In this document: piece by piece, positions 15,041 through 23,861 of the stretch
Position numbering within the stretch: the first letter of the stretch is position 1
Layout of the letters: each line of letters starts with the position of its first letter
Source: Brachyspira aalborgi
GTDB lineage: Bacteria > Spirochaetota > Brachyspiria > Brachyspirales > Brachyspiraceae
Length of the DNA stretch: 64,000 nucleotides
NCBI RefSeq assembly: GCF_008016455.1
Contig: NZ_SAXU01000001.1
Coordinates: forward strand, 1,116,001-1,180,000
Direction: 5' to 3'
Notes under the pieces: generated by a model
Told to the model about the DNA's origin: nothing
Databases searched by the model: none
What the model saw: the letters and a program-made list of their open reading frames with translations, nothing else
Translations under genes and position numbers: made by a program

Positions 15041-18000
15041 ATGAAATATATTAAGAATAATTATTTTTCCGACAGAGTTTTAAGAGTGGATTTAAAAAAG
15101 TATTTTGACGATGATAAAAATTGCCAAACTGCTTTTGATTATATAAAAAATCTTTATTATAAAAATAATTTAGAAAAGTTAAACGAAAGCCAATTAGAAG
15201 AAAATTTTATAAAACCTATATTAAACGATATATTTGAATATAAATATTTAACTCAAGAAAAAATTACAATATTCGGACAACAATTAAAACCCGATTATAT
15301 TTTATTTCCAAACGAAAAAGCAAAAAAGAATTATATCGATAAGAAAGATTATAAAGATATATTATTAATATTCGAGGCTAAAGAATGGGCAAGAGAGCTT
15401 GACACAAAAACAATAGCGCAATCTCCGCATATGCAACTTGTTCGTTATAATATGTTTATAGGCGTTCGATACGGAATATTGTCAAACGGCAAAGAATGGA
15501 GATTATATGATTTGAAAGATAAAAAGTCAGAAAAAATATTCTTTTCTATAGATTTGGAAGATATTATTAAAAATGACGATTACGAATTTTTTCAATATTT
15601 TTACTATATTTTTAGAAAAAAGTATTTTATAGCCGAAGAAAAAGAAATTGAAAGCAAAGCGGATAAAATAAGCATCATAAACGAAATGGCGATAAATGAA
15701 ATAGAAGAAGATTTAAAAAATATAATATATGGCGACAATTCCATTATAGAAAAAATAGGACAGATTTTATATAGAAATTATAACGATAGAAGTCTAAACG
15801 AGTTGTTTAATCAATCAATAATTATGGCTTATAGATTATTATTCATATCCTATTTTGAAACTAAATACGAAAGTCAATTATTTTATGAACATGACAATTA
15901 TAAAATTAAAGCGTTGTTTACATTGTATAAAAATTTAGAAAAACATTTTAGCGGAGCAAAAGTTAATCCTAAATTAAACGCTTATAAAGAACTATGCGAT
16001 TTATTTAATATTTTAGACGAAGGAAGCGTTCCTTTTAATATTCCTCTTTTAAATGGCGGATTATTTGAAAAGAATAAAGCTCCTTTGCTTCATAATGAAA
16101 AATTATTTACTAACGAGGAGGTATTTGATATTTTAAAAGAACTTTTGCAAATAAGAGATGATAAGAACAAAATAAATATTAGAAATTTTGCGATTATGTC
16201 GGTTACTCATATTGGAAATATTTACGAAGGCTTATTGCAATATAATTTTAGAAAAGCGGGAAACGATAAAACATATTATTTGGAATATAGAGACGATACG
16301 AATAAATCAAAAAACGGTTATTATGATATTCACGATTATCAATTAATGAAAAAGAATAAAAATATAAAAATAGATATTGAAAAAGAAATAGAGCCTAATT
16401 CTATTTATTTGGTTAATAATTCAAACGAAAGAAAAATGAGCGCAAGTTATTATACTCCAGCTTCAATTTCAAATTTTATGGTAAAAGACGCCGTTAATAT
16501 TATTTTAAATGAGAAAAAATACAAGGAAAATATACTTTCTTTAAAAGTTTTAGATAACGCTTGCGGAAGCGGACATTTTTTAGTGGATTTTTTGGACGCT
16601 TTAACGGAAAACATTTATTCGAGAATATTTAACGGAGAGAAAAAAGAGGGAGATTTTTATTATTTATACGATTTTATAATTAAAGAAAAAGATAAAATTA
16701 AAGAGAATTTGAAAAAATACAATTTAGACGATTTGGAAATAGACGAACTTCAAATATTAAAAAGAATTTTATTAAAGAAAATAATATACGGAGTAGATAT
16801 AAATTATTTTTCGGTAGAACTTACCCGTTTAAGTTTGTGGCTTAAAACTTTTATATTTGGAACTCCTTTAAGTTTTATAGAACATCACATTAAAGAAGGC
16901 AATTCATTAATCGGCTCTTCGATAGAGGAAGGAAATAAAATATTCAGCGAAAGCGAAAAATCGGACGAATTTTTTAAAACAAATTTTAAAGAAATATTTG
17001 ACGACTTGAAAAATATATCCGAAAAATTATCATCTTTACCAGATAGCACAACGGAAGAAATTGAAAACTCTAAAAAAATATACTCTGAAGAAATATATCC
17101 AAAACAAAAAAGATTGTCTCAAATACTAGATTTAATAACATATAAAAAATTATCGGCATCTCTCAAAAAGAAAAAAGAAACGGAAATTTTAAGTTTGGAT
17201 ACTTACGGAATTTTTACAAATATTGAAAATTATATCGACTTAGAGAATGAAGACGCTTTATTAGAAGTCGGAAGAATAAAAAATAAATATAAATTTTTTC
17301 ATTACGATATTGAATTTCCAGAAAGTTATAATTACGGTTTCGATATTATTATAGGAAATCCGCCTTGGGATAAAGTAAAATTGGACGATAAAGATTTTTT
17401 CTCAAAATATAGAAGCAATTATAGAACGATGAAAAATAGCGAGAAAAAAGCTACTCAAGATAATTTGCTTAAATACTCTAAAGAAATTAAAGAAGAATAT
17501 TTGAATACGGGAATTTATATAAATACATTGTCGTCATATTATAATAAATATTATCCGCTAAACGAAGGAGCGGGCGATACGAATTTATATAAACTTTTTA
17601 TGGAAAGAAATATAAATTTACTTTCGCAAAAAGGTTCTTTGATTTATATAACTCCTTCTACTTGGAGTTACGAGGAAGGCTCGATTAATTTGAGGAAATA
17701 TATTTTTGACAATATTAAATTTAAATATTTTTATCAATTTGAAAATAGAAATAAAATTTTTAGAGATGTGGATTCGAGATATAAATTCGCGATTTGGAGT
17801 TTGCAAAAATTAAATCCCGACAAATCAAAAGCAGATTTTGACAAATTGCCTTGCTTTTTTATGGAGCTTGAAACCGACAGACTTTATAACGAAAAAATAA
17901 AAGATATATTTTATTCGCTCAATTTTTCAAGAAATTTATTTTACGACTCTTATATGATTCCCGAAATTAGAGACAAAAACGATTTGAAAATATTGCAAAA

Positions 18001-18940
18001 AACTTATTCGGTTGGAAAAATTATCGACACAAATTATATAGATTTTTACAATGAACTTCATTTAACTATTGATAAAGATATATTTTTGGAAGATAGAAAT
18101 AATAACGAAATGTTTCTTTATCAAGGCAGAATGATTAATCAATTCAATTCTTCTTTTGAAAAGCCTCAATATTTTGTGGACGAAAACGAGCTTAAGAAAA
18201 GAATTCTTTCAAAAGAAATTTATAGAATGATACAAAATATTTACGAAGAAAAAAATATAAATAATTTGAAACGAAACAATAAAAGCAAAGAAGCTACAAT
18301 TTTGGAATATTTTAATTTCGATAAAAGAGAGGATTTGGAAAAATATATAGTTTATGATTATAATTTTCCAAGATTGGCTTTTAGAGGAGTAGCGAGCAAT
18401 ACTAATGAAAGAACTTTAATAAGCGCAATTCTTCCGCCAAACTCTACGGCGGGAAATTCTTTATATTTGTCTTATTCAAAAAAATATTATTTGGAAAATA
18501 AAGATATAAAAATAAAGAAAATTCCTTTTGAAAGGCTTTTGTGGGTTAATGCGATTTTCAATAGCGTTATTATAGATTATATAATTCGTTTATATGTAGA
18601 CATGGCGGTTAATAAAATATATTTAATGAAAATTCCTTTGATACATGCATCGGAAGAAGAATTAAAGAAAAATCCTTATAACGAAATAATTGAAAATGCT
18701 TTTGTTTTAAATTTATATAATAATAAAGAATTGAAATCTCTTTATAAAACGAGCGTTGAAATTCCTAAAAACGATAAAGATTATAATATGATTCAAATAA
18801 GAAACGATATTTTGATTGCCAAACTTTATAATATAACTTTCGAGGAATTTGCAAGAATTGTCGATAGTTTTAAAGTTCTTAAAAATAAATACCCAGAATA
18901 TACAAATACTTTAATAGATAAAGCAAGAAGCGAATTATAA
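15041..18940 (+). CDS. type IIG restriction-modification enzyme (Eco57I-like)
   Basis: 1299 residues in one chain. An N-terminal nuclease domain of PD-(D/E)xK type is visible: Pro84-Asp85 in KPDYILF, then Glu112-Ala-Lys114 in LLIFEAKEW. The N6-adenine methyltransferase part has motif I LDNACGSGHFL near residue 504 and the catalytic motif IV NPPW near residue 773. The rest, about 450 residues, should be the target recognition domain. Such enzymes both cut and methylate asymmetric sites and need no partner gene. The nuclease residues seem intact, which argues against a BREX PglX. An AGAGG ribosome site precedes the ATG. It stands alone, with no other defence gene nearby. Confidence 0.85.
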   Translation: MKYIKNNYFSDRVLRVDLKKYFDDDKNCQTAFDYIKNLYYKNNLEKLNESQLEENFIKPILNDIFEYKYLTQEKITIFGQQLKPDYILFPNEKAKKNYIDKKDYKDILLIFEAKEWARELDTKTIAQSPHMQLVRYNMFIGVRYGILSNGKEWRLYDLKDKKSEKIFFSIDLEDIIKNDDYEFFQYFYYIFRKKYFIAEEKEIESKADKISIINEMAINEIEEDLKNIIYGDNSIIEKIGQILYRNYNDRSLNELFNQSIIMAYRLLFISYFETKYESQLFYEHDNYKIKALFTLYKNLEKHFSGAKVNPKLNAYKELCDLFNILDEGSVPFNIPLLNGGLFEKNKAPLLHNEKLFTNEEVFDILKELLQIRDDKNKINIRNFAIMSVTHIGNIYEGLLQYNFRKAGNDKTYYLEYRDDTNKSKNGYYDIHDYQLMKKNKNIKIDIEKEIEPNSIYLVNNSNERKMSASYYTPASISNFMVKDAVNIILNEKKYKENILSLKVLDNACGSGHFLVDFLDALTENIYSRIFNGEKKEGDFYYLYDFIIKEKDKIKENLKKYNLDDLEIDELQILKRILLKKIIYGVDINYFSVELTRLSLWLKTFIFGTPLSFIEHHIKEGNSLIGSSIEEGNKIFSESEKSDEFFKTNFKEIFDDLKNISEKLSSLPDSTTEEIENSKKIYSEEIYPKQKRLSQILDLITYKKLSASLKKKKETEILSLDTYGIFTNIENYIDLENEDALLEVGRIKNKYKFFHYDIEFPESYNYGFDIIIGNPPWDKVKLDDKDFFSKYRSNYRTMKNSEKKATQDNLLKYSKEIKEEYLNTGIYINTLSSYYNKYYPLNEGAGDTNLYKLFMERNINLLSQKGSLIYITPSTWSYEEGSINLRKYIFDNIKFKYFYQFENRNKIFRDVDSRYKFAIWSLQKLNPDKSKADFDKLPCFFMELETDRLYNEKIKDIFYSLNFSRNLFYDSYMIPEIRDKNDLKILQKTYSVGKIIDTNYIDFYNELHLTIDKDIFLEDRNNNEMFLYQGRMINQFNSSFEKPQYFVDENELKKRILSKEIYRMIQNIYEEKNINNLKRNNKSKEATILEYFNFDKREDLEKYIVYDYNFPRLAFRGVASNTNERTLISAILPPNSTAGNSLYLSYSKKYYLENKDIKIKKIPFERLLWVNAIFNSVIIDYIIRLYVDMAVNKIYLMKIPLIHASEEELKKNPYNEIIENAFVLNLYNNKELKSLYKTSVEIPKNDKDYNMIQIRNDILIAKLYNITFEEFARIVDSFKVLKNKYPEYTNTLIDKARSEL

Positions 18941-20233: not shown

Positions 20234-20266
20234 AAAGCGAGTCCTATTAATAGAACCCGCTTTTTT
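20234..20266. terminator. bidirectional intrinsic terminator
   Basis: Fourteen-position stem with two mismatches (20234-20247 with 20250-20263), GC-rich at its base, followed by six T on the plus strand. A-rich DNA on the other side makes it usable by the minus-strand gene at 20284. Confidence 0.8.
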
Positions 20267-20283: not shown

Positions 20284-21132
20284 TTATAATAATTTTTGTT
20301 CTCTCATAGCCTCGTATAAAGTGTCGTATCCTTTAAGCTCTTTCTCGCCCGTAATTATCCACTCGTTCAAGCCTTCCATAGCCATCATTTTTTTTATAAT
20401 AGGATTTTCCTTTTTTTGAGACATAAGCATTTTAACAAAATTATCCGATATTTCAGAATCGATATTTGGCATAACCGTGAAGTTGCAATGACAAAAATCG
20501 GGGCTTGTGTAAAAAGAGATTAAATCTCCGTCAGGATATAATCCTTCTTCCAAAATTCTTATCCAAGTATTAGAGCCTATAGTTCCCGCATCCAAAGAAC
20601 CATTTTTTAAGCCTTCCAATACATCCCATTCGCTTCTGCCTGTATCTCCATGTTTTCCCAAATCGGAATTATATCTTATAATGTTTACGCTTTCGTTATC
20701 TATTTCTAAATTATTAATATCGGATTCTTTAATTTTTAATCCGTTTTTATTTAGATAATAAATAGCCATTATATTAGCTTGAGAAGAATCGGCGCTTCCA
20801 ACTCCAAGTTTTTTGCCTTTCAAATCTTCAATATTTTTTATTTTGCTATCTTTTTTAACTACAAATTTTGTAGACCAATGTAAATCGGTATCTCTCATAG
20901 CTATAGCTTTAGCTTTATTGTCTGTCGCGTATAATGTTCTTATCCAAGCGACATTTGTATTCCAAGCTATATCTATATGTCCTTTTAATAAAGAATCTAC
21001 TTGCCTTTCATAATTTGAAAATAAAACATAATCGAGCTTGCATCCGTATTCGTTGCTATAATCTCTTATTATATCCCAAATTCCAACCACTTTAGGGTCA
21101 TAAGCTACCGCGCCTAATAATATAGTTTTCAT
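20284..21132 (-). CDS. PhnD-like solute-binding-fold protein without signal peptide
   Basis: 282 residues from the ATG at 21132, which has a GGAGAT ribosome site; the frame is open eight codons further upstream. The fold is that of the phosphonate/sulfonate-binding proteins: LKGHIDIAWNTNVAWIRTLY, STKFVVKKDSKIKNIEDLKGKKLGVGSADSSQANI and LKNGSLDAGTIGSNTW. However there is no signal peptide or lipobox, and no ABC permease or ATPase nearby. Related cytoplasmic proteins with this fold are enzymes (MqnA, MqnD, THI5-type), so an enzymatic or ligand-sensing role is more likely than transport. It is the last of three linked genes. Confidence 0.7.
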   Translation of the reverse strand: MKTILLGAVAYDPKVVGIWDIIRDYSNEYGCKLDYVLFSNYERQVDSLLKGHIDIAWNTNVAWIRTLYATDNKAKAIAMRDTDLHWSTKFVVKKDSKIKNIEDLKGKKLGVGSADSSQANIMAIYYLNKNGLKIKESDINNLEIDNESVNIIRYNSDLGKHGDTGRSEWDVLEGLKNGSLDAGTIGSNTWIRILEEGLYPDGDLISFYTSPDFCHCNFTVMPNIDSEISDNFVKMLMSQKKENPIIKKMMAMEGLNEWIITGEKELKGYDTLYEAMREQKLL

Positions 21133-21171
21133 TTTATCTCCTTTTTTTAAAATCAAATTTACTATTTTAAA

Positions 21172-22287
21172 TTAAGAAACTATAGCCTTTCCAAGCCATG
21201 TTTTTAATACATCGATACCAGGAGCCATAACGGGCGCAGCCAAAGCGTCTCTCATATATCTTTCTAACGGAAGCCTTTTTGCATAAGCGTTTCCTCCGCC
21301 CAATTTCATGGCTTTCTGACAAACTTCTACCGCTATTTCAATAGAGTTTATTCTGCAAGCAAATATTTTTAATCCAGAATCGGCTTCGTTATTGTCGAGG
21401 CTTTCGGCTGATGCAAATGTAAACGCTACGGCAGATTGCATTTTTGTATATATTTCGGCTAAATTTACTTGCACCATTTCAATATCGGCTAAAGATTGTC
21501 CGCTTGTATATTTTCTATTTTTTGTATAATCTAAAATGCAATTATAAGCGTTTCTTGCAAGTCCGCTATAAACCGCTCCCAAACCGACAACGAAATAAGG
21601 TAAAACGCTTCCGCATTGATTTTCTCCGTCTCCTTCTTTGCCTATTCTATAAGAAATATCAAGTTCCACATTATCGTAAGCTACGGGCATAGACGCATTT
21701 CCTCTCATTCCTAAACCGTCCCATTTATTTTCTTCATGGGTAATTCCTTTTGAATTATTATGAACGAGCCAATTATTTAATGTTCCCTTATTTTCGCAAG
21801 AATTGGTAAGAGTTAAATAATAGTCGGCAAATAATGCGCTTGTAACGAAACTCTTTCTTCCGTTTAATATTATTCTACTTCCAGATTTAGTTTCCGTCAT
21901 ATCGGGACTTCCAAAATGCGTTCCGCTTCCGCTTTCGCTATATGCCAAAGCTATTGCAACTTCTCCTTTCGCAATTTTAGGCAAGAATTCTTTTTTCTGT
22001 TCTTCAGTTCCGTAATCAATTAAGCATTTAGTTCCAGCGTTATGCATCATATAACATAATCCCGTTGTAGCGCAGTAATTAGCCAATGCATGAACTACTT
22101 CGGCATGCTCTTTAGCTCCTCCGCCCATTCCTCCGTATTCTTTTGGAACTATAAGCCCCATATAGCCTTGTTTTCTTAATTCGTTATAGGCTTCTTTCGG
22201 AAATCTTCCGTTTTTGTCAACCTCTTCCGTATAAGGTTTAACATGCTGTTCTGCAAATTTAATTGCATCTTCAAAAATTTTACTCAT
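21172..22287 (-). CDS. acyl-CoA-dehydrogenase-like flavoprotein
   Basis: 371 residues in the acyl-CoA dehydrogenase fold: an N-terminal helical domain (GYMGLIVPKEYGGMGGG), the beta domain with ALAYSESGSGTHFG and GLGMRGNASMP, and the C-terminal FAD-binding helices (MQSAVAFTFASAES, CQKAMKLGGGNAY). The segment that normally carries the catalytic base (YEGTSEIQ-like) reads MAPGIDVLKTW here, without Glu. That argues against ordinary CoA-ester dehydrogenation and for a monooxygenase, oxidase or other flavin chemistry. It sits between the solute-binding-fold protein (39-base gap) and the diiron protein (56-base gap). A GGAGAAC ribosome site precedes the ATG. Confidence 0.8.
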   Translation of the reverse strand: MSKIFEDAIKFAEQHVKPYTEEVDKNGRFPKEAYNELRKQGYMGLIVPKEYGGMGGGAKEHAEVVHALANYCATTGLCYMMHNAGTKCLIDYGTEEQKKEFLPKIAKGEVAIALAYSESGSGTHFGSPDMTETKSGSRIILNGRKSFVTSALFADYYLTLTNSCENKGTLNNWLVHNNSKGITHEENKWDGLGMRGNASMPVAYDNVELDISYRIGKEGDGENQCGSVLPYFVVGLGAVYSGLARNAYNCILDYTKNRKYTSGQSLADIEMVQVNLAEIYTKMQSAVAFTFASAESLDNNEADSGLKIFACRINSIEIAVEVCQKAMKLGGGNAYAKRLPLERYMRDALAAPVMAPGIDVLKTWLGKAIVS

Positions 22288-22343
22288 TTTTGTTCTCCTT
22301 AAAGTATTTTAATATTTTTTATATATAAATTTTTATTTATATA

Positions 22344-23534
22344 TCACATAAAATTAGGCGTATGTTTTTTCGATATATCCACCGCCAAGTCTTCGTCTAT
22401 TCCTATTTCTGTTAGTCTTTGAACTCTATTTTCATGCATTTGATTTTTAAGTTCGCTTACAAGTTCCATTCCGTTTTTATACTGATTATAAGAAGTTCCG
22501 CCGCCCGCAAGAAAAGCCATAGATTCTATTAATAAAGTCGATTCTCCGTTTAATTCGTCCAAATATTCTTTTCTTTTAAATACCGCTTCTTTTAAAATAT
22601 TCACTTTATTAGGATTATGTTTTAATATTTCTTTAATATGATTCGTTCCGTATCTAACATGTCGAGTTTCGTCTATTCTAACCAATCTTAATAATTTTTG
22701 AGTCGGTTCGTCTTTTGTATATTTTTCTAAAAAACTCAGTAAATCCAAAAAAGTTCCTTCTCCCATTACATGCAACAAAAAGCTCGATTTTATATAATTA
22801 CTTTCGGCGTATAAAGTATATAAAGAATTTTGAGTAATAATCGAAGAATATTGAACTCCCATGCCGTTTATATTCGCTCTTTTAATAAACGCTTCTATAT
22901 GTCTCGCTTCGTCATTAATTAGAGAAGATAAAAATACGGGAATCTCGTAAAAATACGGACTAACTTTTGCTATAAATTTACTTGGCACATATAAAGCTGA
23001 AAATTCGTTTTCTGTTAAATATGTCATAATTTGAGCTATAGCAAATTCCATATCTTTATCGTAATTCGGTATATTATCCCAATCTATATCGACAGAAGTA
23101 TTCCATTGAGTTTTTTTGCTTTCTTCGTAAAGTTTTGAAATATTATTATTCCATAAATCCTCTTTATAATGCAAGTCAAAACCGTAATTTGGAGAGCCTT
23201 CTTCAGGCAAACTATTTCTTGGAGCGAGTCCTATATTTAACGGAGGATTGCTTTCTAAACGATTAATATCAGCTTCAAATTTTGGAAAATTATCGTTCGA
23301 CTTTTTCTTTATATAGTAGCTATATAATTCTTTATTATTTTTCTTATCTAAAAATATTTCGCCTTTAAATATGCAGTAGGATTTTAAATCGTTTTCAAGA
23401 TTATTGTAAAACGAAATTATCTCTATAATATCGTCCTTTTTAGAAACTAAAAGAGCGTTTTCAATCCTAAAGAAAAACGATTTGCCGATGGGAATATCGC
23501 CCAAAAATATACTTTTGCTATGATTATAACTCAT
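22344..23534 (-). CDS. ferritin-like diiron protein, unknown substrate
   Basis: 396 residues. The first 150 residues match nothing that I know. The rest is a four-helix ferritin-like bundle with a complete diiron carboxylate set: Glu177 in TENEF, Glu209 and His212 in NDEARHIEAF, Glu259 in MGEGTFLD, and Glu289 and His292 in IDETRHVRYG. This E-ExxH-E-ExxH pattern is that of ribonucleotide reductase R2, oxygenases and rubrerythrin relatives. Being of this length and having a unique N-terminal domain, it is more likely an oxygenase or oxidase than iron storage. It is the first gene of the three-gene unit, behind a promoter with an inverted repeat. Confidence 0.75.
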   Translation of the reverse strand: MSYNHSKSIFLGDIPIGKSFFFRIENALLVSKKDDIIEIISFYNNLENDLKSYCIFKGEIFLDKKNNKELYSYYIKKKSNDNFPKFEADINRLESNPPLNIGLAPRNSLPEEGSPNYGFDLHYKEDLWNNNISKLYEESKKTQWNTSVDIDWDNIPNYDKDMEFAIAQIMTYLTENEFSALYVPSKFIAKVSPYFYEIPVFLSSLINDEARHIEAFIKRANINGMGVQYSSIITQNSLYTLYAESNYIKSSFLLHVMGEGTFLDLLSFLEKYTKDEPTQKLLRLVRIDETRHVRYGTNHIKEILKHNPNKVNILKEAVFKRKEYLDELNGESTLLIESMAFLAGGGTSYNQYKNGMELVSELKNQMHENRVQRLTEIGIDEDLAVDISKKHTPNFM

Positions 23535-23593
23535 AATGCTATCCTTAAAATAAAATGTAAATAAATTAATTTTTTATAATTAATGATTGATTA

Positions 23594-23631
23594 ATTATAG
23601 GCTAATGTTTTGAATAAACTCACGGTTTATT
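23594..23631 (-). promoter_or_regulatory. promoter with inverted repeat ahead of the diiron gene
   Basis: TATAAT on the minus strand at 23594-23599, with a weak TGAGTT -35 at 23617-23622. A perfect inverted repeat, AATAAAC-N5-GTTTATT (23613-23631), covers the -35 box, which is where a repressor would bind. The remaining part of the 380-base gap (23640-23860) shows no gene. Confidence 0.45.
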
Positions 23632-23861
23632 ATAATGAAATTTTCTGGGGAAATTTATAATCATTAAAAAATAATGTTGATAAAAATGTTTTTAACAATA
23701 ACATAAATTTTCCTCTTTTTGATTATATTTTCTATTTGATAATCGCTTAAATTAATTAACAATTAAAATAATTATATAATATTTTAAATTTTTGTCAAAT
23801 GAAAAGTTTAAATAGATTATTTTTTATAAATCAAATTTTTATTTAGAATTAAGATTTTGTA

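Follow-up and report, generated by a model that had tools for sequence, protein, structure and literature searches.

A three-gene unit of Brachyspira aalborgi with a TusA-like diiron protein, a flavoprotein and a cytoplasmic binding-fold protein is a variant of the uncharacterised Rv1678-Rv1681 gene set

The DNA analysed here, referred to as the window, is a stretch of 64,000 nucleotides from Brachyspira aalborgi (contig NZ_SAXU01000001.1, positions 1,116,001 to 1,180,000 of the forward strand; host genome 2.50 Mb). Three genes on its minus strand are real and together form one unit: gene 1, a diiron protein gene (DIIR, 22344..23534, 396 aa); gene 2, encoding a flavoprotein of the acyl-coenzyme A (acyl-CoA) dehydrogenase fold (ACAD, 21172..22287, 371 aa); and gene 3, encoding a binding-fold protein (SBP, 20284..21132, 282 aa from ATG, or 8 aa more from an alternative TTG start). 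The coordinates of the open reading frames (ORFs) agree with an earlier note on this DNA, which had placed three genes on one strand with gaps of 39 and 56 bases; these are the ACAD-SBP and DIIR-ACAD gaps, respectively. By trio sequence, the nearest named relative is Brachyspira catarrhinii (91–96% protein identity). Ratios of nonsynonymous to synonymous substitution (dN/dS) for the trio against four Brachyspira loci are 0.043–0.131 in 12 comparisons, which shows purifying selection and therefore excludes chance ORFs. The unit is regarded here as a version of the Rv1678-Rv1681 families, a gene set that is already known but has no characterised function. On balance, the trio appears to encode one soluble, self-contained redox pathway for a small cytoplasmic metabolite, which would exist in a diiron and a radical S-adenosylmethionine (SAM) version.

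A scan of a whole-genome collection with SBP gave 43 loci, the gene content of which was mapped by ORFs and tblastn. The genes DIIR, ACAD and SBP are present in the same order in 38 of these, from Brachyspira (five loci) and from Campylobacterota, Paenibacillaceae, one Armatimonadota bin and one bin labelled Clostridia (33 loci). Some trio loci are imperfect, with broken frames (L033, L043), a run into masked bases (L014) or a cut within SBP (L048). The earlier note had proposed looking for the three families together outside close relatives, and they are found together across distant phyla. It had also considered that the binding-fold protein might belong to an ATP-binding cassette (ABC) operon elsewhere; no recurring ABC operon with SBP was found. 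In three further loci (L045, L046 and L050) a radical-SAM gene of the Rv1681 type comes after SBP, with ACAD visible in two and the contig of L050 starting at SBP. Another (L053) holds scraps of the unit in a different arrangement. A Myxococcales relative of SBP is followed by a core-MetE-like gene (L052, 506-2466), its upstream genes being hidden by the contig start.

Within the 43 loci, where ORF calling is poor in the G+C-rich ones, there is no convincingly recurrent neighbour family beyond the trio and none that names a pathway. No transporter family recurs as a set beside the trio, the one ATPase-like group being made up of four single loci at varied distances. At one locus (L021, 9088-10551), the unit is followed on its 3' side by what by eye is a YeeE-like transporter, together with a TusA gene (Pfam E 2e-21), a possible thiosulfate-uptake pair.

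The presence of the genes is also linked between genomes. DIIR is found in 8 of 26 Brachyspira genomes, degraded in one of these. The Rv1680 model was run on 19 of the 26, where SBP occurs in the same 5 genomes that carry an intact DIIR. In the Helicobacter genus sample of 19 genomes, DIIR occurs in 11 and the identical 11 have a full SBP, while genome G083 keeps no more than an SBP scrap. In a tree of 29 concatenated loci, with the root set on Bacillota and Armatimonadota, the five Brachyspira rows are sister to nine Helicobacter-like rows (Shimodaira-Hasegawa-like approximate likelihood ratio test 100, by a quick method), inside the Campylobacterota. Because the Brachyspira copies nest in this way, it is likely that the unit was transferred into Brachyspira. 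The bin labelled Clostridia (L022) also groups among the Helicobacter-like rows, and its taxon label is probably wrong.

DIIR has an N-terminal domain (about residues 1–80, 23295..23534) ahead of a ferritin-like diiron domain (about residues 130–391). The earlier note had called the N-terminal domain new, but it is TusA-like by Pfam, by profile search and by its predicted model. At E<=1, Pfam TusA is found in 16 of the 33 members of DIIR, most strongly at 2.6e-9, a profile search matches TusA chains at E 0.02, and the isolated domain of one member exceeds the Pfam TusA cut-off (34.5 against 28.6 bits). In the predicted model the domain has the order b-a-b-a-b-b and is followed by a low-confidence linker (84-129). 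While the first 80 residues resemble the TusA sulfur carrier in fold and sequence, they are fused to an oxidase and lack the CPxP cysteine in 33 of 33 members, two of which (L034 and L036) carry a cysteine five residues earlier. The ligands expected of a diiron carboxylate protein, as which DIIR had been recognised before, are conserved as four glutamates and two histidines: E177 (33/33), E209 (32/33), H212 (33/33), E259 (32/32 readable), E289 (33/33) and H292 (33/33). The exception at E209 is a Helicobacter copy (L017) with lysine at this position, which also has an altered leader loop (TGTAT) and is perhaps decaying.

The closest counterpart of the unit is the actinobacterial set Rv1679-Rv1680-Rv1681 (FadE16, SBP-like and MoeX; NF049984, NF049985 and NF049973), in which a related ACAD-SBP pair is likewise adjacent and SBP identity is 37–44%. 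The best NCBIfam model for SBP is by far that of Rv1680 (296.3 bits, under the curated cut-off of 400), and it matches 33 of 33 SBP members at E<=0.001; for ACAD the best model is that of Rv1679 (270.2 bits, below the curated cut-off of 600). The arrangement ACAD-SBP-Rv1681 is found on Mycolicibacterium and Rhodococcus plasmids and in three genomes, the Rhodococcus radical-SAM frame running to the end of its record. Rv1681 above its curated cut-off is rare, in 3 of 246 sampled Actinomycetota genomes, and all three have SBP and ACAD upstream, with ACAD partly visible in these short loci. In the actinobacterial version the radical-SAM partner comes after SBP and there is often an additional gene, Rv1678, whereas in the three-gene unit the diiron partner comes first.

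The partner enzymes of the two versions, DIIR in the unit and Rv1681 in mycobacteria, appear to share a TusA-like N-terminus. Of six available N-termini of the Rv1681 type (first 60 residues) four were tested, and Pfam TusA matches all four (E 0.0055-0.17), as the sole family in three. A comparison of the DIIR and Rv1681 N-terminal domains by hhalign gives P 5e-4 and a score of 23.9, ungapped and in the same register, against 11.9 for the best of 47 unrelated control windows. From the sequences, a shared TusA-like adaptor with exchanged catalytic domains, diiron or radical SAM, is a reasonably probable explanation.

The families of Rv1678 to Rv1681 have already been named by NCBI without a function, and each fold of the trio is known. 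In the literature searched, neither the three-gene unit nor its diiron form nor its leader hairpin is described, no paper treats two of Rv1678, Rv1679 and Rv1680 together, and no function was found for Rv1681/MoeX, Rv1676 or DsbF. A table row of PMC8562490 calls Rv1680 a putative part of a phosphonate transporter. Thiol-redox genes lie beside the mycobacterial version on the Mycolicibacterium plasmid: CcdA, a protein disulfide oxidoreductase, a glutaredoxin-domain protein and a deiodinase-like protein. PMC5499769 describes Cmr, divergent to rv1676-dsbF, as responsive to redox and nitrosation. These neighbours and the Cmr control point to sulfur chemistry as leads only, and prove nothing for the diiron form. 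In Miltoncostaea, ACAD and SBP are followed by DUF2515 and another radical-SAM gene. The whole plasmid locus (L062, 1-10850) reads SelD, CMD, an Rv1681-like radical-SAM gene without the TusA part, GT2, DUF2064-NUDIX, ACAD, SBP, DUF2515 and a SPASM radical-SAM gene, and its SelD, DUF2064 and CMD genes are a lead only to an arsenosugar or selenium link.

SBP has the type II binding-protein fold. Its predicted model (predicted local distance difference test 94) is closest to PhnD1, PtxB, XAC2383 and ArrX, with 5lq5 the best Foldseek match (E 2.3e-21) and 7s6g at Z 23.9 (root-mean-square deviation, rmsd, 3.7; 258 aligned). In the alignment of 30 relatives and in the model, by eye, the chain opens at the first strand and leaves no room for a signal peptide or lipobox, and the earlier description of a signal-less, cytoplasmic binding-fold protein therefore stands; SBP looks like a cytoplasmic enzyme or carrier. 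The pocket was mapped by profile alignment onto the Prochlorococcus PhnD residues named in PMC5700983: Tyr46, Ser126-Thr127-Ser128, His158, Asp205 and Tyr206. On this mapping, PhnD Tyr46 corresponds to Tyr41 of SBP, kept in 33 of 33 members. The Ser-Thr-Ser motif reads Ser-[Ala/Gly/Ser/Pro]-[Gln/His] in the readable rows, His158 is replaced by Glu in 30 and Asp in 3, and the cap residues Asp205 and Tyr206 are replaced by His215 (32/32 readable) and Cys216 (33/33). Because the STS-H oxyanion motif and the Asp/Tyr cap are both replaced, the phosphonate-defining site is, by this alignment, lost from SBP, and a Cys-His pair is predicted to face the ligand space.

ACAD matches the Pfam acyl-CoA-dehydrogenase domains above cut-off, including those of the flavin adenine dinucleotide domain. 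Aligned to 5ol2, it has MAP and then Ser, Thr or Gly in place of the YEGT motif. The glutamate of that motif is replaced by Ala355 in 22 of 22 relatives, with Pro356 next to it equally invariant, and in the helix-G segment (224-242) a glutamate is present in only one of 22 rows (L038) and is not conserved. The flavoprotein had been noted before as Glu-less and as probably not using CoA esters. The first holds throughout the relatives, and the second is supported to the extent that, on its sequence, ACAD is unlikely to work as an ordinary acyl-CoA dehydrogenase.

The comparisons directly show that the trio is conserved as a unit, which domains it has, which residues are lost or kept and that a leader hairpin is present; a single pathway, its order of steps, a docking or adaptor role and a swap of catalytic domains may be inferred. 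DIIR would use a diiron (or Mn/Fe) site to activate O2 and attack an unactivated C-H bond or a heteroatom, with its Cys-less TusA-like domain presumably acting as a docking part. ACAD would carry out a flavin redox step other than the usual acyl-CoA alpha,beta-dehydrogenation. SBP would be no transporter subunit, but an enzyme or carrier that closes over the substrate and uses the invariant Cys216-His215 pair that replaces the PhnD cap. Rv1681 would be the partner of the same ACAD and SBP in Actinomycetota, so that diiron and radical SAM would be O2-dependent and O2-independent solutions for the same step. The guess of a sulfur (or selenium) compound as substrate, and of small-molecule sulfur chemistry, is prompted by the TusA-like domain of DIIR, the cysteine in the SBP pocket and the thiol-redox genes that adjoin the mycobacterial version.

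Several points weigh against this pathway. Pairwise protein distances of the trio in 29 loci speak for a unit, correlating at 0.914, 0.916 and 0.818, where the best of 999 permutations reaches 0.37, but such mirror correlations of distance matrices are inflated by common descent. The hhalign probabilities for the two N-terminal domains are low in absolute terms, at 31% and 22.5%, and the Rv1681 domain scores nothing against one TusA sequence alone. The gene order differs, with the diiron gene first and the radical-SAM gene last, and ACAD identity between the two versions is 31–33%. The actinobacterial version, which often has the extra membrane protein Rv1678, could be a different pathway. For sulfur chemistry there are hints only, the L021 unit being the one unit next to a pair that by eye resembles thiosulfate uptake.

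The same residues could instead be seen as those of organosulfur scavenging of the Dsz type, in which DIIR and a DszC-like ACAD would oxygenate a sulfur compound and SBP would be a DszB-like desulfinase, its cysteine releasing sulfite. DszB is built on a binding-protein fold. Its catalytic cysteine, as given in PMC6100217, would find a counterpart in the invariant Cys216 of the SBP pocket, and ACAD resembles 3-sulfinopropanoyl-CoA desulfinase and the SfnB/DszC models, among others. However, the models for Rv1679 and acryloyl-CoA reductase give ACAD higher scores, the neighbourhood of the unit shows no recurrent sulfite reductase or sulfonate transporter, and DszB is absent among the best 50 matches listed in both structure comparisons of SBP, as are MqnA/MqnD and THI5. 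Scavenging of this type is unlikely, even as the strongest of the alternatives.

Slightly less probable again is N-oxidation or N-N chemistry with a small molecule of the azoxy, nitroso or a similar type, on the model of valanimycin, for which VlmB is the diiron protein and VlmH the ACAD-like N-hydroxylase. When the DIIR model was compared by VIA-align, VlmB and protein 60 were the top rows (Z 22.9, rmsd 3.0, 257 aligned), and the AurF N-oxygenase family matches 28 of 33 DIIR members at E<=1. The R2lox and aldehyde-deformylating oxygenase rows, however, are within about 1.5 Z of VlmB, and by eye no carrier, tRNA ligase or resistance gene is close to the unit. For R2lox, which is marked by a Tyr-Val ether crosslink and a bound fatty acid, the NCBIfam model gives DIIR 38.7 bits against a cut-off of 194. 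All three relatives have the ferritin-like diiron fold and full ligand set of DIIR in common, most rows being 13–17% identical where they match, but DIIR adds the TusA-like domain and the fixed partners ACAD and SBP.

It is improbable that SBP genuinely binds phosphonates or other oxyanions, serving in scavenging, in sensing or as part of a degenerate transporter, with its neighbours merely co-regulated. Such a role would suit its whole-chain likeness to PhnD and PtxB and the kept Tyr41, but not the loss of the STS-H motif and the His-Cys cap, the lack of a signal sequence and of recurring ABC genes, or the strict linkage to two redox enzymes.

Least probable is that the unit replaces ThiC by making the thiamine pyrimidine in an O2-dependent, THI5-like way. 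The THI5 hydroxymethylpyrimidine phosphate synthase has an active-site Lys/His and a Cys motif. SBP is distantly NMT1/THI5-like (E 2.4e-7), the likeness that the earlier note had raised, ThiC is found in 0 of 26 Brachyspira genomes and the genome of the window has a TMP-TENI family gene, but ThiC is missing in Brachyspira with and without the unit alike, it is present in 19 of 19 Helicobacter genus genomes, and no riboswitch family reaches the gathering score in the window, in 12 loci or in 8 loci, where only tRNAs and one antisense RNA were detected. As a general role, ThiC replacement is rejected, since all 11 unit-bearing Helicobacter genomes keep ThiC.

The 5' region of the unit has a promoter-like site, TTGACA-16-TATAAT, at 23771..23798 on the minus strand, with a 12/12 match. 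A terminator-like hairpin of 13 pairs, 5 of them G-C, lies 3' of SBP (20234..20263, minus strand). As the terminator scan found 2 sites against 2.0 expected by chance, the call rests on stem length rather than on the count. Of the promoter and terminator previously placed around the genes, the promoter is thus well matched, while the terminator is seen only as a stem. A perfect inverted repeat, described before as operator-like, is present at 23575-23599 and in one related locus (L011), but is absent from two others (L012 and L013).

The conserved leader element is a different one, the hairpin AATAAAC-CGTGA-GTTTATT at 23613..23631 (minus strand), which is identified by pattern and covariation and has a CGUGN loop in RNA. 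In the 150 bases before DIIR, a hairpin of at least 5 pairs with a CGTGN loop is found in 17 of 37 regions, where 200 dinucleotide shuffles gave a mean of 0.07 and a maximum of 1. The second-best loop, AGGT, is in 7 of 37 regions and is of the Arcobacter type. Among 24 reference-chosen hairpins, 119 of 120 cells pair and all 5 pairs vary on both sides somewhere, with pairing falling to 54% when the partner is slid by one column; the paired percentage is biased, the hairpins having been picked for pairing, and the loop count and genome scan are less so. The stem varies in sequence yet stays paired, which would be expected of an RNA element more than of a DNA operator. When the window's own leader is folded as RNA, the hairpin is not favoured (z -0.35).

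The genome scan used an earlier 18-row hairpin model, to which some of the scanned Helicobacter genomes had contributed training rows, although L098-L102, L104 and L107 matched none of these. It recovers the unit leader in 10 of 11 unit-bearing Helicobacter genomes, nine at E <0.27 and one at 1.0. The sole other match below 0.27 in the 19 genomes is in G083, as a leader before a broken DIIR start. Of 15 weaker matches, the one at E 1.0 is the unit leader just mentioned and the rest were not counted as copies. In the window's own genome the hairpin core is present as a single copy, at the unit. In these genomes the leader hairpin is dedicated to the unit, with no wider regulon seen. Broken remnants of the unit are seen in L104 (G083), L008 (G016) and L053, and in the first two the leader hairpin has outlived the genes. 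Arcobacter leaders (L028-L033 and L047) have another hairpin, with a GGT or AGGTT loop, shortly after a -10-like box, and a second, seemingly covarying stem (CCATC/GATGG, CTACAC/GTGTAG).

Brachyspira leaders also have an ORF of 23–25 codons, ending F-P-[EQ]-x-[IL]-S-L, directly before the hairpin. In the window it has 24 codons and ends FPQKISL (23630..23704, minus strand), with a Shine-Dalgarno-like AGAGG 7 bases before its start. It is open in five Brachyspira lineages (the window, L005, L011, L012 and L013) with an identical stop position, the same Ser-Leu end being encoded by different codons in L005, and may encode either a small protein or a leader peptide. Elsewhere in the window, at 15041-18940 on the plus strand, is an ORF of 1299 aa with an NPPW motif, which by eye is presumably an Eco57I-type restriction-modification enzyme.

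In its fullest form the proposal is tentative: one pathway would have two forms that share the Glu-less flavoprotein and a binding-fold enzyme with an active-site cysteine, with a Cys-less TusA-like domain carrying either diiron (Spirochaetota, Campylobacterota and Bacillota) or radical SAM (Actinomycetota, including M. tuberculosis) for the same C-H step, and the diiron form would be under a CGUGN leader RNA that may sense the product. If this is true, the exchange of diiron and radical SAM behind one adaptor would be a clear new case of substitution between O2-dependent and O2-independent enzymes, and would bring with it a binding-fold enzyme that works in the cytoplasm and a leader RNA hairpin of its own. 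Rv1679-Rv1681 are genes of the reference gene set of the tubercle bacillus without assigned function, and the diiron form, being present in easily cultured environmental bacteria, is a route to that function. The proposal, if true, would also explain why a gut spirochaete has kept an O2-using enzyme.

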